Shown here piece by piece: positions 44,705 to 56,450 of a DNA stretch of 64,000 bases. Position 1 is the stretch's first letter. Each line of letters begins with the position of its first letter. This DNA is from Alphaproteobacteria bacterium (lineage in GTDB: Bacteria > Pseudomonadota > Alphaproteobacteria > Caulobacterales > Aquidulcibacteraceae), in NCBI GenBank assembly GCA_027485915.1, contig JAIXQA010000023.1:1-64000 (forward strand), in the 5' to 3' direction. Position numbers and translations under genes: made by a program. A model generated the notes under the pieces. It searched no databases and was not told the DNA's origin. It saw only the letters and a program-made list of their open reading frames with translations.

Positions 44705-46312
44705 ATGCAAACCTCTGATCCTTCTTGGTGGCGCGGCGCGACGCTCTACCAAATCTATCCGCGCAGCTTTGCCGATTCGAACGGCGATGGTATAGGGGAT
44801 TTGCCGGGTTTGACAGCAAAGCTCGACTATGTCGCAGATCTAGGGGTAGACGGCATTTGGCTGTCGCCCTTCTTTGCATCGCCGCAGCGTGACTTTGGTT
44901 ATGATGTTAGTGACCACTACGCCATCGATCCCATGTTCGGCACAATGGCGGACTTTGATGCGCTGATCGCAGAAGCACATGCTTTGGGGCTGCGGGTCGT
45001 TATTGATCAAGTTTGGTCCCACACCGCCATTGAACACGCGTGGTTTCAAGAAAGCCGCCAAAATCGGACAAATCCCAAAGCGGACTGGTATGTCTGGGCC
45101 GATCCGCTGCTTGACGGGTCATGTCCGACAAACTGGCAAAGCTGGATGGGCGGCGCTACGTGGACATGGGAGCCGCGCCGCGGGCAATATTACTTGCACA
45201 ACTTCCTGCCCCAGATGCCGGACTTGAACTTTCATTGCCCCCAAGTTCAAGAGGCGATCCTAGATATTGGACGGTTCTGGCTCGATCGCGGGGTCGATGG
45301 CTTCCGGCTTGATACCGTCAATTATTACTTCCACGACAAAAGCCTTAGAAACAACCCACCAAAGCCCGGAGATAGTCCGGCCACCATGCAGCGGCACGTT
45401 TATAACATCTGTCGGCCTGAAAACCTGCCTTTTTTGAAGGAGATACGGGCGCTTCTTGACGACTTTCCTGGCAGCTTTGTCGTTGGCGAGATTGGGTCAG
45501 ATGACAATCTTGCGCGGATGATCGAGTACACCGCTGGTACAGATCATCTGCATACGGCCTACTCCTTTCAACTGTTAAGTGATCGTGCTGATCCGGCACA
45601 TTTTCGAGATGCGATGCAACCTTGGACGCATGGGGCGGGCGCGCGCGCCTGGCCATCTTGGGCATTGAGCAATCACGACTGTGAGCGTGTGGCGAGTCGC
45701 TGGAAACTAGATGCCCCAACGCATCAAGTAGCTGAGTTCGCCCTTGCACTCATTGTGTCGCTGCGTGGCACGATCTTTGTGTATCAAGGTGAAGAATTGG
45801 GCTTGTCCCAAGCCGAACTTGCGTTTGAAGATTTGCGAGATCCCCTAGGCATAGCTAATTGGCCAGCAAATAAAGGTCGCGATGGTTGCCGGACGATAAT
45901 GCCATGGGCACATGGTCAGGCACTCATGGGGTTCTCCAGCACGACGCCTTGGTTGCCGATTGTGGAAGCGCATCGAGATCACAGCGTGGACCTACAATCA
46001 CAAAATCCTACGTCTGTACTCGCCTTCGCTAAGCACGCTATTGCCCTTCGTAGGGCTAGTTCTGCTTTGCGGCTGGGTGACTTTCAGGTCATTTATGAGG
46101 ACTTAGCATGCCTGATTTTCTCTCGGACCGCCGGTGAATCAACGTGTCTTGCCGGCTTTAATTTCTCGTCTGAAACGCAGTCGATCTCCAATTTTCATAG
46201 AGGTTACCTGCGGCCCGATTTAACGGTTGGAGCCGTCCAAATTGATCCAGACAGAATTATACTCGGTCCAGTTTCGGCGTTTATCGTCTCCCCGCAACTG
46301 CCTTTTGAATAA
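44705..46312 (+). CDS. GH13 alpha-glucosidase
   Basis: A 535-residue glycoside hydrolase of family 13, oligo-1,6-glucosidase/alpha-glucosidase type. It begins WWRGATLYQIYPRSFADSNGDGIGDLPG, typical of the group. The conserved regions are I (VVIDQVWSHT), II with the nucleophile Asp (GFRLDTVNYY), III with the acid/base Glu (VVGEIGSDDN) and IV (ALSNHDCERV). No signal peptide, so it should act on imported oligosaccharides in the cytoplasm. It opens a tight operon: the next start is 3 bases beyond its stop. Confidence 0.93.
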   Translation: MQTSDPSWWRGATLYQIYPRSFADSNGDGIGDLPGLTAKLDYVADLGVDGIWLSPFFASPQRDFGYDVSDHYAIDPMFGTMADFDALIAEAHALGLRVVIDQVWSHTAIEHAWFQESRQNRTNPKADWYVWADPLLDGSCPTNWQSWMGGATWTWEPRRGQYYLHNFLPQMPDLNFHCPQVQEAILDIGRFWLDRGVDGFRLDTVNYYFHDKSLRNNPPKPGDSPATMQRHVYNICRPENLPFLKEIRALLDDFPGSFVVGEIGSDDNLARMIEYTAGTDHLHTAYSFQLLSDRADPAHFRDAMQPWTHGAGARAWPSWALSNHDCERVASRWKLDAPTHQVAEFALALIVSLRGTIFVYQGEELGLSQAELAFEDLRDPLGIANWPANKGRDGCRTIMPWAHGQALMGFSSTTPWLPIVEAHRDHSVDLQSQNPTSVLAFAKHAIALRRASSALRLGDFQVIYEDLACLIFSRTAGESTCLAGFNFSSETQSISNFHRGYLRPDLTVGAVQIDPDRIILGPVSAFIVSPQLPFE

Positions 46313-46314
46313 GG

Positions 46315-47148
46315 ATGCTTCCCATGAGCCTCGTCCTCGATCCAGATCTTGATCGCACCTATGACCTAAGGCCAGAGCACATTCGCCAGTTCGAGCGAGA
46401 CGGCTATATTCATTTGAAGTCCGTTTTATCTCGGGAAGTATTGGCCGCCTATGGTCGCGAAATAACGCGGCTGACCATTGCCCTAAACACCCAAACCAAG
46501 CCGTTAGCGGAACGAACGACCTATGATCGAGCTTTCTTGCAAGTCATGAATCTTTGGGAACAAAGCGAGCGGGTTAAGGCCTTTGTTCTAGGCAAGACCC
46601 TAGGTCGGATTGCCACAGAACTGATGGGCGTCCGCGGCGTGCGCTTATATCATGATCAGTCACTCTATAAAGAGCCAGGTGGTGGCATTACACCCGCCCA
46701 TGCCGACCAATACTATTGGCCACTTTCAACTGATCGAACGATCACGGCTTGGATTCCCTTGCAGGATGTTCCGACCGAAATGGGTCCTTTGAGCTTTTAT
46801 GCTGGAAGCCAACATGAGGCATTTGGGCGGGATTTGGGAATTTCCGATGAGAGCGAGGCCGCAATTACGGCAATGATGGAAGCTCGACGTTTCCCCTTGA
46901 TCCAGAACCCCTATGACCTTGGGGACGTTAGCTTCCACTTAGGTTGGACTTTCCATAAGGCCGGACCAAACGTATCAAGCCAACCGCGCAGTGTCATGAC
47001 CATGATTTACATGGATGTTGACATGGTGCTGCAAGAGCCAACCAATGGGATTCAGGAAGGAGATTGGGTACAATGGTGCCCTGGAGCGCGCATTGGTGAA
47101 ATCATCCAAACGCCAAAAAATCCAGTAATTTATGAGCATAGCGCATGA
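46315..47148 (+). CDS. Phytanoyl-CoA dioxygenase (PhyH) family Fe(II)/2-oxoglutarate oxygenase
   Basis: A 277-residue oxygenase. The iron triad is visible as His129-x-Asp131 (PAHADQYYW) and His214 (WTFHKAGPN), with Arg225 placed to bind 2-oxoglutarate (SQPRSVMT). PhyH proteins hydroxylate or oxidatively demethylate small molecules and some modified sugars or sulfonates. The start may be 46315 or 46324. It sits between a glucosidase and a zinc dehydrogenase, overlapping the latter by 4 bases (ATGA), which suggests action on a sugar released by the operon's glycosidases. Confidence 0.87.
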   Translation: MLPMSLVLDPDLDRTYDLRPEHIRQFERDGYIHLKSVLSREVLAAYGREITRLTIALNTQTKPLAERTTYDRAFLQVMNLWEQSERVKAFVLGKTLGRIATELMGVRGVRLYHDQSLYKEPGGGITPAHADQYYWPLSTDRTITAWIPLQDVPTEMGPLSFYAGSQHEAFGRDLGISDESEAAITAMMEARRFPLIQNPYDLGDVSFHLGWTFHKAGPNVSSQPRSVMTMIYMDVDMVLQEPTNGIQEGDWVQWCPGARIGEIIQTPKNPVIYEHSA

Positions 47149-48293
47149 CGTCTTCAAGCAATGTTGCCAGCCGAACTGGTCTTGCTGCCATTACAAATGG
47201 CCATGGCGGATTCGTTCTGGACTTTATAAAAATCCGTGCACCGATTGGTGACGAAGTGCGGGTAGCGCTTGGTGCTTCTGGCATATGTCACACCGATTAT
47301 GCTTCCTTGTCTTGGGACGGTCCGCTGGTAGTTGGTCATGAGGGTGCTGGTTGGGTGGAGGCCATAGGCCCCGACGTTCATGACTTAAAGATTGGCGATC
47401 CTGTTCTACTAAATTGGGCCATTCCTTGTGGACATTGCAAGCGGTGTGACACCGGCCACGCTAATATCTGCGAGCGCTCGCACGGAATTGATCCCGAGAC
47501 TTTAGGTACAAGCCGGGCCGGTCATGATCATACAATCTGGAATGGAAGCGCGATCCAGCGTTCGTTCAATCTAGGCACATTCTCCGAGTTCACCTTGGTC
47601 CGCCGTTCTGCCTTAACGCCAATCTTGTCAGGAATTCCGGTCGAGCAGGCGTGCATATTGGGCTGTGGCGTCATGACAGGTGTTGGCTCGGTCTTGAATA
47701 TTGCGCAGCCTAGTCCCGGCGACATAGTTGCGATTGTTGGTTGTGGAGGTGTCGGCCTATCGGTTGTTCAGGGCGCTCGACTGGCCGGGGCATCCAGAAT
47801 TATCGCCATTGACGTGCGACAAGATAGCTTAGACCGCGCCAAAGTAATGGGTGCAACCGACCTGCTACTCGCCGACGCTTCTGACACAAATCATGATCAG
47901 CTTTCGTCTCAGATTAAGTCTATGACAAATGGTCGCGGCGTCGATTTTGCTTTTGAGGCGACGGGTGTCGCTGCGTTGGCATTTTTGCCGCTACGACTGG
48001 TTCGCAATGGCGGGATGGCGGTTCAAGTAAGCGGTGCCCAGGGGGCGGTAGAAGTCCCCATGCCCTTATTCTGGTGGGACAAACGCTACGTAACGCCCCT
48101 TTACGGTGGTTGTAACCCAGAGCGCGATTTCCCGCGGTTGATGCGTTGGGCAGTGGAGGGTGCGCTCGATTTGTCTTCCATGATTTCGAAGACCTATCAC
48201 CTCGAGAATCTGGCAATGGCAATCGATGATATGCTAGCTGGACGCACAGCGAAGGGGGTCGTAATTTTCGAGAATGGTAGAGCCCATGTTTAG
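47145..48293 (+). CDS. Zinc-dependent alcohol dehydrogenase, class III-like
   Basis: A 382-residue medium-chain dehydrogenase. Catalytic zinc ligands Cys48 (GICHTDYA) and His65/Glu66 (GHEGAGW) and all four structural-zinc cysteines (95, 98, 101, 109) are present; the NAD loop is VGCGGVGLSV. The overall pattern is nearest to glutathione- or mycothiol-dependent formaldehyde dehydrogenases and aryl-alcohol dehydrogenases, so the substrate may be an alcohol, an aldehyde or an S-hydroxymethyl thiol. It overlaps PhyH by 4 bases and the esterase by 20. Confidence 0.88.
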   Translation: MTSSSNVASRTGLAAITNGHGGFVLDFIKIRAPIGDEVRVALGASGICHTDYASLSWDGPLVVGHEGAGWVEAIGPDVHDLKIGDPVLLNWAIPCGHCKRCDTGHANICERSHGIDPETLGTSRAGHDHTIWNGSAIQRSFNLGTFSEFTLVRRSALTPILSGIPVEQACILGCGVMTGVGSVLNIAQPSPGDIVAIVGCGGVGLSVVQGARLAGASRIIAIDVRQDSLDRAKVMGATDLLLADASDTNHDQLSSQIKSMTNGRGVDFAFEATGVAALAFLPLRLVRNGGMAVQVSGAQGAVEVPMPLFWWDKRYVTPLYGGCNPERDFPRLMRWAVEGALDLSSMISKTYHLENLAMAIDDMLAGRTAKGVVIFENGRAHV

Positions 48294-49071
48294 GACTTTT
48301 GAGCACGCGGACCTATCGATCGACACAATCGGTCTGTCACACGTCACAGTCAAAAGCCAAGCCTTAGGTAGAAGGGCCGATGTAACGGTCTTCATCCCAG
48401 ACGAAGTGGGAAAGGGGGCCAAACTGCCGATCGTTACGCTTCTTCACGGTGTTTTTGGTTCACATTGGGCTTGGGCCTTTAAGGGCAAAGCGCACCTTAC
48501 CGCTCGGGCCCTAATGGCGCAAAAGCTGATCCCACCTATGGTTATTCTAATGCCCTCAGATGGACTTTGGGGAGATGGTTCGGGATATATTCCGCATACA
48601 GACGCTGATTATGAGAGATGGATCGTCGAAGAAGTCCCGGCCATTGCCTGTCAGTTAACTTCCGCTTGTAGTCCTGCTTCGCCCTACTTTCTCGCCGGAC
48701 TTTCAATGGGTGGTTTTGCAGCGTTGCGGCTTGGCGCCAAGTATCCCAAACAATTTAAAGCGATCAGCGCACACTCCTCGGCAACTAATTTGGGACAGTT
48801 GGCTAAGTTTATCGAGGAAGATACTACTGGTTGGAGTTCGTACCCTATCGACCGCGATGTGTTCACGGCTATGCAAGCCGCTGGAGAGTCTTTGCCACCT
48901 ATCCGGTTTGATTGTGGCACGGACGACCCGCTTTTAGATGCGAATCGAGTTCTCCACCATGCAATGACGAGCGCGGGCTTCGCTCACATCTATGAAGAGC
49001 TTCCTGGCGGTCATTCTTGGGACTATTGGGCGTCTAATTTGCATCGTTCGCTCTTATTTTTTGCCAATTGA
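48274..49071 (+). CDS. Esterase D / S-formylglutathione hydrolase-like alpha/beta hydrolase
   Basis: A 265-residue hydrolase of the putative esterase family (PF00756). The nucleophile elbow is GLSMGGFAA, Asp is in FDCGTDDPLL and the catalytic His in LPGGHSWDYW. Members include S-formylglutathione hydrolases and acyl or feruloyl esterases. No signal peptide is visible. It overlaps the dehydrogenase gene by 20 bases. The dehydrogenase-esterase pair is what a thiol-dependent formaldehyde oxidation route uses, but deacylation of sugar esters is an alternative. Confidence 0.85.
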   Translation: MVEPMFRTFEHADLSIDTIGLSHVTVKSQALGRRADVTVFIPDEVGKGAKLPIVTLLHGVFGSHWAWAFKGKAHLTARALMAQKLIPPMVILMPSDGLWGDGSGYIPHTDADYERWIVEEVPAIACQLTSACSPASPYFLAGLSMGGFAALRLGAKYPKQFKAISAHSSATNLGQLAKFIEEDTTGWSSYPIDRDVFTAMQAAGESLPPIRFDCGTDDPLLDANRVLHHAMTSAGFAHIYEELPGGHSWDYWASNLHRSLLFFAN

Positions 49072-49091
49072 AGCACGAAGGTCAGACGCGC

Positions 49092-51299
49092 ATGCTAGCC
49101 CCAAAACGTCTCGCCCGATGGCTCTTTACCCTTGCCATTCTCTTGTTCTTCACGCCAGCAGCCGCATTAGAGAAGCACCCGTTGCGTTATGTTGACCCAT
49201 TCATCGGCACGGATGGTACTGGCCACGTCTTTCCGGGTGCTGTTGTACCTTTTGGAATGGTTGCTCCGGGGCCTGATATGGAAGACAGGGGGTGGAGCTA
49301 TTCCAGCGGCTATCAGTACCAAGCGCGCTCCATTCTTGGTTTTTCCAACACCCACATCAGTGGGGCGGGAATTGGCGAGTTGGGTGACGTTTTATTGCAG
49401 CCTTCCTCAGGCACTAAATGGACTCTCGGAACGACAAGTTTTCGAAGCTCCTTTGACAAGTCGACCGAGAAAGCAAGCCCCGGCTTTTATGCGGTAACAT
49501 TAAGGGATCACGGCGTTCGAGTTGAACTGACAGCTGGCCAGCGGGTGGCAATCCAGCGATACCGTTTTGAGAGGACAGGCAAGGCGCAAGTCCTACTCGA
49601 CCTTCAGCACGGCATTTTGTTTGGAGATGGCCCTCGGGTCTTGAAGTCAGACGTCGAAAAGGATCCCACCCATGGCGAAATCAGCGGCACGATATGGTCG
49701 AGAAACTGGGTCGAACGTGAGGCTTCTTTCGTTGTTCGATTTGATCGTCCGATCGCCAACATCATCAGTTTGCCCTCTCGGCCAGGTGATCAGGCCCCGC
49801 GCTTTATCCTTGAGTTCGAGCTTGGCCAAGCCAAGACCTTAGAGGCGCGCGTTGCTTTATCCACTGTCGATATCGCTGGGGCACGGGCCAATTTGGCCGC
49901 TTTCGGTGAGCCAAGCTTTGAGAGTGTCGTGCGATCCGCCCGCAGCCAATGGAACGCTTTGCTGCGTCGGATAGAGATTCAAGGCAGCGACAAAGAGAAG
50001 CGAATTTTCTATTCTGCTTTGTACAGAACACTCATTCATCCTAGCGACATTGCCGATGTCGATGGGCGTGTACGCGGCCCTACCGGGGAGATAATCAGGT
50101 CGAAGTCGGGCCACTATTACAGTACCCTATCCCTTTGGGACACATTTCGCGGCGTCCACCCACTGTTCACACTGATTGTGCCAGAGCGGGTGGATGGGAT
50201 GGTTCAGACTTTACTGGAGCACCATCGTGTACAAGGTTACTTGCCACTTTGGACTGCCTGGGGGCGCGAGACTTGGACCATGATTGGCAATCCTGCATTA
50301 CCTGTCATTGCTGATGCGGTGGTTAAAGGCTTTGAAGGCTTCGACCGGAATGAAGCGCTTGCCGCGATGATCTCCACGTCAACCCAGCCAAGACCAAACG
50401 CACCTCCTTGGGCGCAGCGCGATTGGCTCGCCTACGAGAAGTTTGGCTATATACCTTATGATCTAGACGAGGGTGAGGCGGTTTCGAAAACACTAGAGTA
50501 TGGTATTGGTGATGACGCTGTCGCGCGCGTTGCGCGGTACTTGGGCCAAATTGAATTGGCTCAACGATTTGAGGCTCGGGCTGCAGGTTATCGTCTTTTG
50601 TTTGATCCCTCCACCAAGACGATGCGAGCACGAAACCAAATGGGAGGTTGGCGAACCCCATTTGACCCCTTAGTGCCAACGTCACCAATGAATAATCCCG
50701 GCGACTATACCGAAGCCAATGCTTGGCAATATACCGCTACGCCTGCTTTGCATGATGTTGAAGGATTCAGAGCGCTGGTTGGTGGACCAAGTGGTTTGGC
50801 TCATTGGTTAGACCGTTTTTTTTCAATTCCCTCCCTCGGCGATAATAAGCACTTAGGTCAAGAAGCCTTGATCGGGCAGTATGCACATGGCAACGAGCCA
50901 AGCCACCATATCGCCTGGCTCTATGCGTATAGCGACGCGCCGGAACGCGGCTACACAATGATAGATAAGATCGCACGAACGTTCTATTCTGATCGCCCAG
51001 ACGGCATTATTGGCAATGACGATTGTGGGCAGATGAGCGCCTGGTACGTCTTCGCGAAACTGGGCTTCTATCCAGTTGAAGTGGCGAGTGGGCATTTTAC
51101 TTTGGGCCGTCCCTTAGTGTCACAAGCGAAGCTTCATCTGGCCAACGGAAAAGTGCTTCTCATTGAGCAGACCGCTGGTTCCAACGTGTTGCTGAATGGT
51201 CAAACGCTTCAAGGACCGACGCTGGCCTACCAGAGCATGCTGGCAGGAGGCAGACTATCCTTTCCTCGCCGTGCTAATCAGGCGCCGATGGTTAAGTGA
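49092..51299 (+). CDS. GH92 family exo-alpha-mannosidase, exported
   Basis: A glycoside hydrolase family 92 protein of 735 residues, a Ca-dependent inverting alpha-mannosidase. ATG 49092 gives a good signal peptide (LARWLFTLAILLFFTPAAA); a TTG eight codons earlier overlaps the esterase stop but would spoil it. Signature segments are VDPFIGTDGTGHVFPGAVVPFGM, the sheet-rich N-terminal domain, then the (alpha/alpha)6 part with SLWDTFRGVHPLF and GNDDCGQMSAWYVFAKLGFYPV. It is the last gene of the five-gene operon and should act in the periplasm, unlike the cytoplasmic GH13. Confidence 0.93.
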   Translation: MLAPKRLARWLFTLAILLFFTPAAALEKHPLRYVDPFIGTDGTGHVFPGAVVPFGMVAPGPDMEDRGWSYSSGYQYQARSILGFSNTHISGAGIGELGDVLLQPSSGTKWTLGTTSFRSSFDKSTEKASPGFYAVTLRDHGVRVELTAGQRVAIQRYRFERTGKAQVLLDLQHGILFGDGPRVLKSDVEKDPTHGEISGTIWSRNWVEREASFVVRFDRPIANIISLPSRPGDQAPRFILEFELGQAKTLEARVALSTVDIAGARANLAAFGEPSFESVVRSARSQWNALLRRIEIQGSDKEKRIFYSALYRTLIHPSDIADVDGRVRGPTGEIIRSKSGHYYSTLSLWDTFRGVHPLFTLIVPERVDGMVQTLLEHHRVQGYLPLWTAWGRETWTMIGNPALPVIADAVVKGFEGFDRNEALAAMISTSTQPRPNAPPWAQRDWLAYEKFGYIPYDLDEGEAVSKTLEYGIGDDAVARVARYLGQIELAQRFEARAAGYRLLFDPSTKTMRARNQMGGWRTPFDPLVPTSPMNNPGDYTEANAWQYTATPALHDVEGFRALVGGPSGLAHWLDRFFSIPSLGDNKHLGQEALIGQYAHGNEPSHHIAWLYAYSDAPERGYTMIDKIARTFYSDRPDGIIGNDDCGQMSAWYVFAKLGFYPVEVASGHFTLGRPLVSQAKLHLANGKVLLIEQTAGSNVLLNGQTLQGPTLAYQSMLAGGRLSFPRRANQAPMVK

Positions 51300-53003: not shown

Positions 53004-53597
53004 TTAGAGCCCGAGTTCAGTCCAGCGGCTCAAATAGATTTTGAACCAAGGCGCGTAGTTTTGAGGGTTGGCCAGAGCATCCGCTTTTAGTTCTTGTACA
53101 TCGACCCAACGGACTTCTGCAACTTCGTCAGGAGCTAAATCGAACGCAAGGTTTTGTTCCGCCACATCGGCTCTAAAAACCTGGACGCGCTCATGCTCAA
53201 TCAAATTGTTGGAGACTTCAGCATAATATTCGATCACTTGGGCCGGCCTTAAGACTAGATCGGCTCCGAGTTCCTCAAAGAGCCTGCGCCGCGCGCTAAC
53301 TTCGGGGGCCTCATTCCAGTGTGGATGCGTGCAGCAGCTATTCGCCCAAAGACCGCCGCAATGATATTTGCTTGCCGCCCGTTTCTGAATGAGCAAATTA
53401 GGGCCACAGAAGACGAAGATGGAAACAGCCAGATGCAGAGTTCCGTCCTCATGTGCTTTCATCTTTTCGATCGGAAACAAAAGTCCGTCGCTTCCAATTG
53501 CTGGAATGATTGGCTGTTGAGATGATGCGAGCAATTCTTTAGACAGAAGCGGCTCAGTTAGGGTCGCTACGAGATGATTCACTTCGACGACTCCCAT
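53004..53597 (-). CDS. idi: Isopentenyl-diphosphate delta-isomerase (type I)
   Basis: Interconverts IPP and DMAPP, balancing precursors for CrtE. The 197-residue Nudix-fold enzyme has the catalytic Cys in NSCCTHPHW (residues 87-95; Cys89 at the usual place), the Nudix-like ARRRLFEELGADL helix and IEHERVQVF with the metal/acid Glu residues. The start MGVVEVNHL at 53597 overlaps the puhE stop by 19 bases; the frame is open further up into puhE. idi is also found beside puh genes in Rhodobacter. Confidence 0.92.
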   Translation of the reverse strand: MGVVEVNHLVATLTEPLLSKELLASSQQPIIPAIGSDGLLFPIEKMKAHEDGTLHLAVSIFVFCGPNLLIQKRAASKYHCGGLWANSCCTHPHWNEAPEVSARRRLFEELGADLVLRPAQVIEYYAEVSNNLIEHERVQVFRADVAEQNLAFDLAPDEVAEVRWVDVQELKADALANPQNYAPWFKIYLSRWTELGL

Positions 53598-54415
53598 GCT
53601 GTTGGACTTAAATTCTTGTCCGCTATCGGCTGTGTCTTTGATTTCTTTGTACCTTTGCTCGGTGATGCCCAGCGCCACAATGCTGCATCTTGAACCGGCA
53701 GGACCATAAAGAAATGCTCCAATAAAGCTAAGGCGGTCAAGGTGAATAGCAAGACAAAGCCGGTTGCCATCGCAGAGCCTTCAGCGGCGTGGTCCGCACG
53801 CGTCATCAGCCAAGCGCATAAGATAAGCGAGCCGATGACGGAAACCGGCATCAAGGCATTCATCGATCGCTTCGGCAAATAGGATTTGAGATGTTCTAAG
53901 TGGGCGGGAAAAAACTCATCCGTCAGGTTTGGCACGCCCAAGAATATATTAAGCTTCGCACTGATCCTCATCGCGAATAAAATGCCAAATGTCCAAGCCG
54001 CAACTGGATTGGGCTGGCCCCAGGTTAAGCCAATTAGTGCAAGAAGGGTCAGGAAAATGGCGATCTCGTGGTGGATAACAGTTAGTGTAGCGTATTTGAA
54101 GCGCGTCCAGCCTTTTGCATCCGCAGGACAAGCCGCTGGCCGAGGACCCGTAATCTTGCCCATTAAGAAGCTCGCCTCATGCCAACCCCAGATAAAGAGC
54201 GCGCAGCCTGCTCCAAAATAAGCTGCCGAGCTTGTGTCTTTATCGGCAGTCACGATCACACCGCCAATTGCTAAGGCGAGGACCAGAGCGAACAAGCTGA
54301 GCGCGGTGCCGTAGTCCTTGGGCGGCAATCGAACGAGCAAGAGGATGATGCCGGTGCTAAACCACCAAGCAAACACCGTCGAGATAATCGGCACAGCCAA
54401 GGTTGCAAGGTCCAT
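53579..54415 (-). CDS. puhE: Photosynthetic complex assembly protein PuhE
   Basis: A 278-residue integral membrane protein of the PuhE/DUF3623 family, needed for normal reaction-centre and LH1 assembly. About seven hydrophobic helices are seen; signatures are FAWWFSTGIILLLVRLP at the N-terminus, FGAGCALFIWGWHEASFLMG, and KLNIFLGVPNLTDEFFPAHL mid-protein. ATG 54415 is chosen over a GTG four codons upstream. It follows puhC by 43 bases and overlaps idi at its 3' end. Confidence 0.92.
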   Translation of the reverse strand: MDLATLAVPIISTVFAWWFSTGIILLLVRLPPKDYGTALSLFALVLALAIGGVIVTADKDTSSAAYFGAGCALFIWGWHEASFLMGKITGPRPAACPADAKGWTRFKYATLTVIHHEIAIFLTLLALIGLTWGQPNPVAAWTFGILFAMRISAKLNIFLGVPNLTDEFFPAHLEHLKSYLPKRSMNALMPVSVIGSLILCAWLMTRADHAAEGSAMATGFVLLFTLTALALLEHFFMVLPVQDAALWRWASPSKGTKKSKTQPIADKNLSPTAWESSK

Positions 54416-54458
54416 CAGCGGCACCACAGCTTGTTGAAATGGTTGCTGTCCGCGGACA

Positions 54459-54920
54459 TCAGCGGGCTTCAGGTACAGTCAGAAATCGGGCGAAGGCCCC
54501 TTCGTTTGTGGGACCAAAGGCGCGCAAATCAATCTCTTTCCCAGTTGTAGGGTCAGACATTGTCAAGCGCTTGTTGGGATACAAGGAGAGGTTGAAAGGA
54601 ACCTCCGCACCAATCTTTCGCAACTTACGGTCGCGCACAAAGCCGCGCATAACAGCCCGCACGAAGGCGTCTTCGCCAGGTGCGATCACGTCCAGTGTTG
54701 CTCCATTGTCCGCATTGAGCACGATGACGGAGCCATCTGGCTCATCGCGGAAACGCATCTTTAGGACTTGGTTAGGAACGGGAGTCGAAACGACAGCGTT
54801 AACCGGCGGATTGAGATTCTGATACCGTCCGACTGCGGCAGCGATCAGCGATAATGCGATCAAGCTGCCAGCAGCATACAAAGCCCCTTTTGGAAATGGT
54901 TCATGGTCAATCGCGCTCAT
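54459..54920 (-). CDS. puhC: Photosynthetic complex assembly protein PuhC
   Basis: A 153-residue protein with one N-terminal membrane helix (about residues 12-31, YAAGSLIALSLIAAAVG) and a periplasmic domain with the PuhC-type segments LKMRFRDEPDGSVIVLNADNG, FVRAVMRGFVRDRK and FNLSLYPNKRLTMSDPTTGKEIDLRAFGP. PuhC supports reorganisation of reaction centre and LH1 in Rhodobacter. It is separated from puhB by an 82-base gap holding a very strong hairpin. Confidence 0.93.
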   Translation of the reverse strand: MSAIDHEPFPKGALYAAGSLIALSLIAAAVGRYQNLNPPVNAVVSTPVPNQVLKMRFRDEPDGSVIVLNADNGATLDVIAPGEDAFVRAVMRGFVRDRKLRKIGAEVPFNLSLYPNKRLTMSDPTTGKEIDLRAFGPTNEGAFARFLTVPEAR

Positions 54921-54959
54921 GTGGGAATTCCTTCAGTTAGACTTGTTGGCGCTTGAGGC

Positions 54960-54999
54960 TGTATTGGCCCACCCTTTGATTGGTGGGTGGGCCAATACA
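54960..54999 (-). promoter_or_regulatory. puhB-puhC intercistronic hairpin
   Basis: Perfect 15-bp inverted repeat (54960-54974 with 54985-54999), stem TGTATTGGCCCACCC, loop of 10 bases, 3 bases after the puhB stop on the transcribed minus strand. Without a following U-run it should stabilise puhAB mRNA or reduce readthrough into puhC rather than terminate fully. Confidence 0.8.
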
Positions 55000-55002
55000 A
55001 AG

Positions 55003-55671
55003 TTAGGCAAGGGCGTGTTCCGCTCCGACACCAGCACCACCCGTAGATTGGGGCTGTTCATCGACGCGTGGCGCGGTCGCATGGGTTTGTTCATGCGCGA
55101 TGCGAAGGGCCTCGGCTAGCACAGCCGCCGGTTTCGTCGCGTCCCGCAAGCAACGCAAAGAAGGCTGAGGCTGCGCGATAAACCCTGGACGAGCATGCGG
55201 CCACAACAAAACAATGGAAATTTTGTTAGGCTTTACCAATTGCAAGGCCACATCGCCGCTGCCATCTGTCATTTGGTTCACAGCAGCGCCTTCAATGATC
55301 CTGTAAGGGATATTGATTGCTTTGGTCAGAGCTGCACCAAATCGCATCACGACTCGACGATTGGTCAAGGTATAGACCGTGGTCTTGCTATTCAGATAGG
55401 CCAGACCAACTAACAGGCCCAAACCAACGAGGCCAATCGGAGCGACCCATACTGCCGCAAGAAGCGACGTCCCGAGATCTTGACCACGCGATGTGCCGTC
55501 TACAACCCGCCATGCCATTAGCAAGACAAAATAGGCTGCAACCCAATCGACCCGGAAAACGCGCCGTGCCATAAGGGTCCAGTCAGGTTCGCCCTGCCAG
55601 AGGATGTTTTCACCCTGTGGCAGCTCGCTTGGCAGGCCGCGAATTGGCTCAAAGTCGTGCTCGACGCTCAT
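55003..55671 (-). CDS. puhB: Photosynthetic complex assembly protein PuhB
   Basis: A 222-residue protein with the PuhB-type N-terminus FEPIRGLPSELPQGENILWQG, three membrane helices (about 45-65, 75-93) and a PH-like domain (YTLTNRRVVMRFGAALTKAINIPY). PuhB promotes reaction-centre assembly. The ATG overlaps the puhA stop (ATGA, 55668-55671). The C-terminal 35 residues are low complexity. A strong hairpin follows the stop. Confidence 0.93.
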   Translation of the reverse strand: MSVEHDFEPIRGLPSELPQGENILWQGEPDWTLMARRVFRVDWVAAYFVLLMAWRVVDGTSRGQDLGTSLLAAVWVAPIGLVGLGLLVGLAYLNSKTTVYTLTNRRVVMRFGAALTKAINIPYRIIEGAAVNQMTDGSGDVALQLVKPNKISIVLLWPHARPGFIAQPQPSLRCLRDATKPAAVLAEALRIAHEQTHATAPRVDEQPQSTGGAGVGAEHALA

Positions 55672-56450
55672 ATCGCGGGCTCCGACCGTGCGGGTGTAGA
55701 GTAGAGATAGCCGGCACCGAAGTAGCCAACAATCTTTTCTTCTTCAAGCAAGGTCACTTGGTCTGGCTTCGCTAGCGCGGGTGCTCCAGCGACTTGGCTA
55801 CCCAAAACAGCGTCTAAGCGGACACGGCTTAGGTTCTTTTGTACGACGCACATGGTCATGGGGACAAGTACATGTTTCGCTGGGCCGCCGTCGGCGGTCA
55901 CGTCGACTTCCAAATAGCGCACCAGGAATTCAGCGCGATCTACCCAGATATCTTTAATTACGCCACCGGCAGCCCCGTCGAGGCCGACTAGGGGCATGCC
56001 GCGCAAATCTGGGTCCTTTTTGTCGATCGAGTAGTCGGTTGCCAGGCGCAATGGCGCGAGCCTCGTTGTGCCATGATTGGTCATGTCTGGCTTATCGGCC
56101 CGCATTGCATAAGAGCCAGGACCGATACCGGAGGTCAAAGGATTGCCATCGGGCTCAATCGGTGATCCGGACCATGCGGCTGTCCGCTTATACTGGGTTG
56201 CATGGGTGTCGCGCGAATTGTCCGGCTTCACGAGTTTGCTGCCGTCTGGCAAATTATAAGTCTTGGGCAAAGCACGGAAGAACACGCCTGGGGTTGGCTC
56301 TAAGACGCCAGAGACGTCATGCTCAAGCGGGAATCCCTCGCGCCGACCTTCGCGCAAGAGATAAAGGACCAACATGAGGAAAAAACCAAAGAATACATAG
56401 AGAACAATCTCTGTGACATCCACAGTCCCCGCGAAATAATGGTTATACAT
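55668..56450 (-). CDS. puhA: Photosynthetic reaction centre H subunit
   Basis: The 260-residue H subunit that caps the cytoplasmic side of the reaction centre and guides protons to the secondary quinone. One N-terminal membrane helix (DVTEIVLYVFFGFFLMLVLYLL), then the globular part with GFPLEHDVSG, LVGLDGAAGGVIKDIWVDRAEFLVRYLEV and a terminal GAGYLYSTPARSEP. Length and segments are canonical. Starts 18 bases after the lhaA stop and overlaps puhB by 4 bases. Confidence 0.97.
   Translation of the reverse strand: MYNHYFAGTVDVTEIVLYVFFGFFLMLVLYLLREGRREGFPLEHDVSGVLEPTPGVFFRALPKTYNLPDGSKLVKPDNSRDTHATQYKRTAAWSGSPIEPDGNPLTSGIGPGSYAMRADKPDMTNHGTTRLAPLRLATDYSIDKKDPDLRGMPLVGLDGAAGGVIKDIWVDRAEFLVRYLEVDVTADGGPAKHVLVPMTMCVVQKNLSRVRLDAVLGSQVAGAPALAKPDQVTLLEEEKIVGYFGAGYLYSTPARSEPAI

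Follow-up and report, generated by a model that had tools for sequence, protein, structure and literature searches.

The closest described counterpart of the locus analysed here is a module of marine bacteria in which a cytochrome P450 (P450), encoded beside a zinc alcohol dehydrogenase (ADH) of the FoADH/ZoADH type, demethylates 6-O-methyl-D-galactose from porphyran (PMC10033563). An esterase gene (EST) is usually found near such dehydrogenases, and knocking out ZoADH impairs growth on 6-O-methyl-galactose (PMC10033563). The two enzymes, deposited as 8H2A (FoADH) and 8H2B (ZoADH), favour aromatic and furan aldehydes and are inactive with formaldehyde, both without a thiol and with glutathione, mycothiol or bacillithiol (PMC10033563). 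A precedent of another kind is offered by FJS, PHYHD1 and further PhyH-family enzymes, which remove 2′-O-methyl groups from free nucleosides and release formaldehyde; the active bacterial nucleoside demethylases include one from Sphingomonas (PMC12709175). Here we describe an operon in the first 64,000 nucleotides of contig JAIXQA010000023.1 from an Alphaproteobacteria bacterium (assembly GCA_027485915.1; this whole stretch is called the window), in which genes for an ADH and an EST follow a PhyH-family dioxygenase gene and are flanked by the glycosidase genes GH13 and GH92. At a probability of roughly 0.6, we consider the operon a module for the utilisation of methylated glycans, in which PhyH would act as a sugar O-demethylase and ADH–EST as an auxiliary pair.

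Operon layout and comparison with the P450 module

Five open reading frames (ORFs) lie head to tail on the + strand between positions 44705 and 51299, in the order GH13, PhyH, ADH, EST and GH92 (Table 1). The initial annotation had named the same five families, and Pfam agrees for every gene. The tight spacing it described was borne out by measurement: a gap of 2 bases separates GH13 from PhyH, and the following genes overlap by 4 (PhyH/ADH), 20 (ADH/EST) and 4 bases (EST/GH92). The start of EST is uncertain by 12 bases (a second in-frame ATG lies at 48286) and that of GH92 by 24 bases (TTG at 49068 or ATG at 49092). A simple promoter and terminator scan was uninformative (6 against a shuffled mean of 5.5; 10 against 8.3). 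The operon is not a chance arrangement, as relatives keep the same order and surroundings and PhyH recurs together with GH13 and/or GH92.

Table 1. Genes of the operon and predicted cofactor-binding residues of PhyH, with window coordinates.
Feature	Position	Strand	Basis
GH13 alpha-glucosidase-like enzyme, 535 aa	44705..46312	+	Pfam Alpha-amylase, 398.8 bits
PhyH-family Fe(II)/2-oxoglutarate dioxygenase, proposed sugar O-demethylase	46315..47148	+	Pfam PhyH (PF05721), 93.6 bits (cut-off 22)
HAD (H129-x-D131), two of three predicted iron ligands	46699..46707	+	Invariant in alignments A1 and A2; coordinates computed from residue numbers
H214, third predicted iron ligand	46954..46956	+	Invariant in alignments A1 and A2
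R225, predicted 2-oxoglutarate carboxylate ligand	46987..46989	+	Invariant in A1 and A2; role from fold family
FoADH/ZoADH-type zinc alcohol dehydrogenase (ADH), 382 aa	47145..48293	+	Pfam ADH_N 73.2 bits, ADH_zinc_N 72.4 bits
PF00756 esterase (EST; alpha/beta hydrolase), partner of ADH, 265 aa	48274..49071	+	Pfam Esterase, 71.9 bits
GH92 alpha-mannosidase-family enzyme with hydrophobic signal-like N-terminal segment	49068..51299	+	Pfam Glyco_hydro_92 462.8 bits, GH92N 202 bits

The window ADH is homologous to the dehydrogenase of the P450 module. Its best matches in the PDB are 8h2a and 8h2b (388 and 386 bits), the next match reaches 181 bits, and the cysteines of the catalytic and the structural zinc are kept. 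In a Microscilla locus built like the P450 module, an EST homologue adjoins ADH, again in this order, and both systems stand in a glycan-degradation setting. They differ in the oxygenase, which is a P450 with ferredoxin and reductase in the one and the PhyH dioxygenase in the other; in the accompanying hydrolases, GH2/GH16 and sulfatases as against GH13/GH92; and in the host, porphyran-degrading marine Flavobacteriia as against a freshwater-type alphaproteobacterium.

A search of 72,556 plasmid records (ADH at E<=1e-60, PhyH at E<=1e-30) returned ADH on three, each with PhyH or P450 on the same record. On Microscilla pSD15, genes for an FAD oxidoreductase, a 2Fe-2S protein, a P450 and an AraC protein share one strand and ADH–EST lies on the opposite strand; this P450 matches 6g5o (666 bits), which we take to be the Zobellia porphyran demethylase. 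On pEMTOL04 of Emticicia (Bacteroidota), AraC is followed by PhyH–ADH–EST, with a PhyH 59% identical to that of the window; a Microscilla-type P450 was not found there, in a search that covered the plasmid and not the chromosome. The third, a Catenovulum replicon, carries AraC and ADH–EST and also, at a distance of about 207 kb, a P450 (80% identity). The window EST is 46–47% identical to the Microscilla, 48–49% to the Emticicia and 39% to the Catenovulum protein. In the ADH tree, the PhyH-linked ADH of Emticicia groups with the P450-linked ADH of Microscilla (support 96/91), so that one oxygenase seems to have taken the place of the other next to related ADHs. This tree includes 37 of the 38 ADH-bearing PhyH loci described below, leaving aside L025, in which ADH is split over two frames, and all matches shorter than about 300 residues; its root is unsure, and L086 and the window genome's own FrmA form long branches.

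PhyH and P450 also alternated in an even sample of 398 Pseudomonadota genomes (E thresholds 1e-70 for ADH, 1e-30 for PhyH and 1e-60 for P450), drawn once for each of the three queries, with draws that agree in size and in the genomes listed: ADH was present in six genomes (5 genera), three of which carry PhyH, three P450 and none both. In the remaining genomes of the sample, ADH, PhyH and P450 were all unmatched at these thresholds. Because the ADH genomes of the sample carry PhyH or P450 and never both, it is probably PhyH that takes over sugar O-demethylation where the P450 is missing. EST adjoins ADH in four further genomes read (L119–L122) and in the genus of the window, and in G426 ADH–EST comes directly after the genes for the P450, ferredoxin and reductase. 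A P450 of the Microscilla type was not found in the window genome (G000) at E<=1e-60; ferredoxin and reductase were not searched genome-wide.

The shared ADH–EST pair bears directly on whether the group removed is a methyl ether at all. PhyH could instead take off another O-alkyl or ether substituent, for example a lactyl, ethyl or glyceryl ether, and leave the released aldehyde or ester to ADH–EST. PhyH enzymes are versatile, and since FoADH/ZoADH prefer aromatic and furan aldehydes to formaldehyde, the substrate of the helper pair may not derive from formaldehyde (PMC10033563). However, the same pair accompanies a P450 with a demonstrated methyl-ether substrate, and the phenotype of the ADH knockout was seen on that very methyl sugar (PMC10033563), which leaves a non-methyl substituent unlikely.

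The PhyH oxygenase

The residues expected of an Fe(II)/2-oxoglutarate dioxygenase are present in the window PhyH: H129, D131, H214 and R225, the predicted iron triad and 2-oxoglutarate arginine, are unchanged across 38 aligned PhyH sequences. The AlphaFold model (pLDDT, predicted local distance difference test, 91.8) has the double-stranded beta-helix fold. Alignments A1 and A2 cover 35 of the 80 PhyH loci described below; L086 (in-frame stop at the chosen end), L109 and the second PhyH of L021 were left out of the PhyH alignment, and P0008 and L108 were omitted from A2.

The nearest folds to the model are SnoK (Z 28.1), SnoN (27.8) and MysH (26.5). SnoK and SnoN act in nogalamycin biosynthesis, and MysH likewise belongs to a biosynthetic pathway; these are the closest solved folds, yet they share only about 19–27% identity with the window PhyH and are not part of a glycan-degradation operon. 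EvdO2 and AviO1, whose substrates are presumably sugars, are also among the structural matches. These likenesses would suit an enzyme that hydroxylates, epimerises or ring-opens the sugar itself and so makes alpha-glycosides with an unusual sugar degradable. Such a role would leave unexplained why PhyH interchanges with a P450 O-demethylase beside the same ADH–EST, and we think it quite improbable.

For the O-demethylation that we favour, the nucleoside enzymes provide a chemical parallel. Like the window protein, PHYHD1 and FJS are PhyH-family Fe/2-oxoglutarate enzymes, and they cleave a methyl ether at a sugar hydroxyl, with formaldehyde as product (PMC12709175), the same type of reaction as is proposed for the window PhyH. 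Unlike them, the window PhyH lies in no nucleoside setting, and it is only a distant match to PHYHD1, both in sequence (family-profile E 5.4e-6, not the best match) and in fold (Z 20.7). Because of the distance to PHYHD1, we take the nucleoside enzymes as a precedent for the reaction and not as a sign of membership.

The window genome contains a further PhyH-family gene (G000:C3:99911-100516, 69.8 bits). In the 20 kb around it (L126), none of the query proteins, window PhyH included, matched at E<=1e-8.

Distribution of the PhyH loci

The lineage of the window genome is close to Aquidulcibacter, Hyphomonadaceae UKL13-1 and Candidatus Phycosocius. PhyH is present in seven of the eight other genomes of the genus, and near relatives hold the operon between malic-enzyme/Tad-type and photosynthesis-type regions, as in the window (region labels assigned by eye). 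A wider scan of species genomes with PhyH confirmed 124 relatives; the 80 best loci, at 62–89% identity, were kept, and nearly all of them are labelled alpha-, beta- or gammaproteobacteria. Neighbours were counted in the 80 loci by tblastn with bit thresholds set by hand, and an earlier clustering, which seems to include antisense ORFs (c9), was not used for the counts.

The neighbourhood of PhyH is a catabolic carbohydrate setting. GH13 and/or GH92 were found in 75 of the 80 loci (54 loci have GH92, 43 the window-type GH13 and 67 at least one of three GH13 types), and eight loci carry a cyclomaltodextrinase-like GH13. Other neighbours were two AraC types (31 and 23 loci), two sugar-type transporters of the major facilitator superfamily (11 and 9) and a TonB receptor (5). 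ADH was found in 38 loci and EST in 43; all 38 ADH loci have EST, and five have EST without ADH. ADH follows PhyH immediately in 33 of the 38 (offset about 0.8–0.9 kb), in alpha-, beta- and gammaproteobacteria alike. In the 48 loci that extend at least 8 kb downstream and at least 5 kb upstream of the PhyH start, ADH occurs in 27, EST in 29 and GH13 or GH92 in 46. The gene set sought in other genomes on the suggestion of the initial annotation thus recurs, but ADH–EST is missing from about half of the PhyH loci.

On the PhyH tree, which has rows for all 80 loci (22 without an ADH label, mostly on cut contigs; Emticicia and Priestia on long branches), the ADH label changes about 10 times, and at least five of these changes are forced by well-supported branches, indicating repeated loss or gain. 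Together with the many loci that lack ADH–EST, this turnover would agree with an ordinary alpha-glucan or mannan operon that PhyH, ADH and EST merely accompany, their functions having nothing to do with it. Against this stand the position of ADH directly after PhyH in most ADH loci, across three proteobacterial classes and in Emticicia, and the overlap of the genes in the window; mere co-residence is in our view very improbable.

Several observations weigh against a sugar O-demethylation module built of PhyH, ADH and EST. ADH is lacking in 42 of the 80 loci and EST in 37 (some contigs are cut). ADH was found in none of the 21 genomes whose ADH-less PhyH loci have full flanks (E<=1e-70), in a search with no positive control of its own, although the same query detected the gene in the 398-genome sample; the strict ADH/PhyH pairing of that sample does not hold more widely. 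Four plasmid records carry PhyH and only one of them ADH, which is absent from two Priestia records (PhyH 42% identical) and one of Streptomyces (33%). Independent cases of alternation are few, the six ADH genomes representing 5 genera, and in two of them the P450 is not adjacent to ADH, lying about 21 kb (G245) and about 23 kb (G293) away. SnoK and SnoN, the nearest structures to PhyH, catalyse a carbocyclisation and an epimerisation, and the kinship with PHYHD1 is remote. To our knowledge, no activity has been described for the PhyH clade of the window, and we know of no methylated alpha-glucan that is common in freshwater. The FoADH study also leaves the true substrate and role of that enzyme open (PMC10033563).

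The stronger proposition that ADH–EST is obligatory for PhyH was rejected in view of the loci without ADH or EST and of the 0/21 result in the genomes checked. The P450 matches of G293 and Catenovulum each contain one TAA, and that of Catenovulum is annotated as an ordinary cytochrome P450 gene.

Some loci carry further genes beside PhyH. A cluster of proteins of about 300 aa (c15; L059:12694-13644, L065:10803-11711, L056/L057:10656-11693) follows PhyH in eight of the 80 loci and never co-occurs with ADH or EST in them. The one member scanned, that of L059, had no Pfam or NCBIfam match; its sequence and a poor model (pLDDT 64) hint, by eye, at a TIM-barrel isomerase-like fold, and c15 may be a replacement of the ADH–EST pair. 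A second, different PhyH-family dioxygenase occurs in six loci (L021:7315-8088, 142.6 bits; L039, L043, L059, L081 and L086) and might serve another methyl position. Another PF00756 esterase (c10), whose N-terminus looks leader-like by eye, is found in 22 loci (L069:10785-11798 and 21 others), in some cases where EST is missing; it might act on an acyl group that decorates the same glycan. On a Priestia megaterium plasmid (L108:9974-10810), a PhyH 42% identical to that of the window adjoins AraC; two Priestia plasmids carry the gene, and the surroundings were read for one. Finally, the locus of L041 (Candidatus Planktophila, Actinomycetota) is nearly identical to that of L048 (Janthinobacterium). 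Both are metagenome-assembled genomes with similar sample names and are neighbours in the tree, and the near-identity is probably a binning error and not a cross-phylum transfer.

The ADH–EST pair, the proposed pathway and its glycan

The initial annotation had called the dehydrogenase class III-like and the esterase esterase D-like, and had let them convert the formaldehyde released by PhyH to formate. The labels are superficially right, as the FrmA/FghA pathway also consists of a zinc ADH and a PF00756-type esterase, but both proteins score far under the curated cut-offs. ADH reaches 213.7 bits against TIGR02818 (class III/glutathione formaldehyde dehydrogenase; cut-off 543.95), its best NCBIfam model being TIGR03989 (NDMA-dependent ADH; 251.1 bits, below the cut-off of 440), and EST reaches 34.8 bits against TIGR02821 (S-formylglutathione hydrolase; cut-off 281.7). 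The genome has a canonical adjacent FrmA/FghA pair elsewhere, on C42, with 598.1 and 385.4 bits, both above the cut-offs. In the alignment column that we take to hold the glutathione-binding arginine (human Arg115), the window ADH has His and not the Arg of FrmA. None of 45 module ADHs has Arg there (His 32, Ser 6, Gln 5, Leu 1, Ala 1), whereas the genome's own FrmA does. Because the scores fall under the cut-offs, the Arg column lacks Arg and the canonical pair is present at C42, a glutathione form of the formaldehyde-to-formate step by the operon pair is unlikely.

The complete scheme, in which PhyH frees formaldehyde and ADH and EST work as glutathione formaldehyde dehydrogenase and S-formylglutathione hydrolase, can draw on the distant likeness just described, on the adjacency of ADH and EST as in FrmA/FghA and on the presence of EST in every ADH locus. 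Searches for canonical FrmA also came up empty in 7 of the 21 ADH-bearing and 5 of the 21 ADH-less genomes, some of which may lack another glutathione route. The 0/45 Arg count and the full canonical pair in the window genome speak against it, as does the inactivity of FoADH/ZoADH towards formaldehyde with each of the three thiols (PMC10033563), and we judge it very unlikely. For the same reasons, together with the sub-cut-off scores, housekeeping detoxification of formaldehyde by the operon pair was rejected. A substitution of ADH for FrmA was also rejected, FrmA being present in 14 of 21 ADH-bearing genomes, hand-chosen from the 38 ADH loci, and in 16 of the 21 ADH-less ones (E<=1e-120), with no clear difference. 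Oxidative removal of O-methyl groups, which the initial annotation had also proposed, thus gains comparative support from the ADH–EST of the P450 module and from PhyH as the oxygenase, without the glutathione step attached to it.

The two glycosidases frame this chemistry. GH13 is alpha-glucosidase-like by its catalytic domain and its nearest characterised kin (alpha-glucosidase 3wy1, 611 bits; QsGH13 7voh, 543 bits), and its FRLD, GE and NHD motifs sit at what we take to be the usual catalytic places. GH92 exceeds the cut-off of TIGR01180 (527.6 bits against 249.55); its nearest solved structure is 7zgm (587 bits), and YTEANAW, HGNEPSHH and GNDDCGQMSAW align with solved members of the family. 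The sequences suggest alpha-mannosides as substrates of GH92 and alpha-glucosides as those of GH13; the linkage is not fixed by sequence alone. GH92 is predicted to be exported and GH13 to be cytoplasmic, as judged by eye from a hydrophobic N-terminal stretch seen in GH92 only; a signal peptide was not apparent in GH13.

In the pathway that we infer, including its cell compartments, its sugar, the demethylase activity and the role of ADH and EST, exported GH92 would trim alpha-mannosides and cytoplasmic GH13 would cut alpha-glucosidic linkages of the imported oligosaccharide. PhyH would hydroxylate the O-methyl carbon of a methylated hexose, either free or terminal on a short alpha-glycoside; the hemiacetal would then collapse to free sugar and formaldehyde, with 2-oxoglutarate converted to succinate and CO2. 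The O-demethylation itself is the step that we infer strongly from the comparisons above. ADH and EST would act on a product common to the PhyH and P450 chemistries. P450 and Fe/2-oxoglutarate enzymes share the hemiacetal/formaldehyde product, and NADH is consumed only by the P450. A role of ADH in regenerating NADH has been considered and doubted (PMC10033563); it is disfavoured by the present operon, because PhyH uses no NADH and yet ADH–EST is retained. This points to the shared methyl-derived product, be it the hemiacetal, formaldehyde or an adduct, as the place where ADH–EST would act.

A bolder version is that PhyH founds an Fe/2-oxoglutarate sugar O-demethylase family that is spread among proteobacteria of freshwater and soil and gives access to methyl-capped alpha-glycans, for instance green-algal N-glycans capped with 3-O-methyl-mannose or methylated alpha-glucans. 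ADH–EST would then deal not with free formaldehyde but with the product of the oxygenase itself: ADH would oxidise the O-hydroxymethyl (hemiacetal) sugar to an O-formyl ester and EST would hydrolyse this to sugar and formate, so that no formaldehyde would escape. The pairing of ADH with EST fits such an ester route, but the narrow, aromatic-preferring pocket of FoADH (PMC10033563) sits uneasily with it, and we regard this version as speculative and rather unlikely. If true, the O-formyl ester route would also explain the role of FoADH/ZoADH beside the P450.

The candidate substrate is an O-methylated alpha-gluco- or mannoside. One fitting candidate is the methyl-capped mannose of algal N-glycans: those of Chlorella vulgaris end in 3-O-methyl and 3,6-di-O-methyl mannose, and methylation shielded them from jack bean mannosidase (PMC6344472). 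Methyl-hexose on Botryococcus glycopeptides is cited in the introduction of the same paper (PMC6344472), and Candidatus Phycosocius bacilliformis, which carries the operon (L020), is a Botryococcus ectosymbiont (PMC5946039). Neither window-type GH13 nor GH92 was found in 22 of the 80 loci, many of which have the GH13c type. Because loci without GH92 carry GH13 enzymes, the target may more generally be a methylated alpha-glucan.

The initial annotation knew of no described locus with this gene set, and none appeared among the papers listed on PhyH in carbohydrate loci. Among the papers listed on methyl-ether removal from hexose during glycan use, only the P450 route appeared, and the word phytanoyl is absent from the main text of two genome papers on the window lineage. 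A sister locus with a P450 as the oxygenase is described (PMC10033563). Methyl ethers can make algal and microbial glycans resistant to glycosidases, and a dioxygenase route, which needs no redox partners, would extend the path of methylated-glycan carbon to freshwater and soil bacteria. The operon also offers a second system in which to solve the role of FoADH/ZoADH and the esterase.

Downstream of the operon, at 53004-56450 of the window, ORFs have by eye the look of an isopentenyl-diphosphate isomerase and of reaction-centre H/assembly proteins. With these by-eye labels, they would fit a bloom-associated aerobic phototroph.

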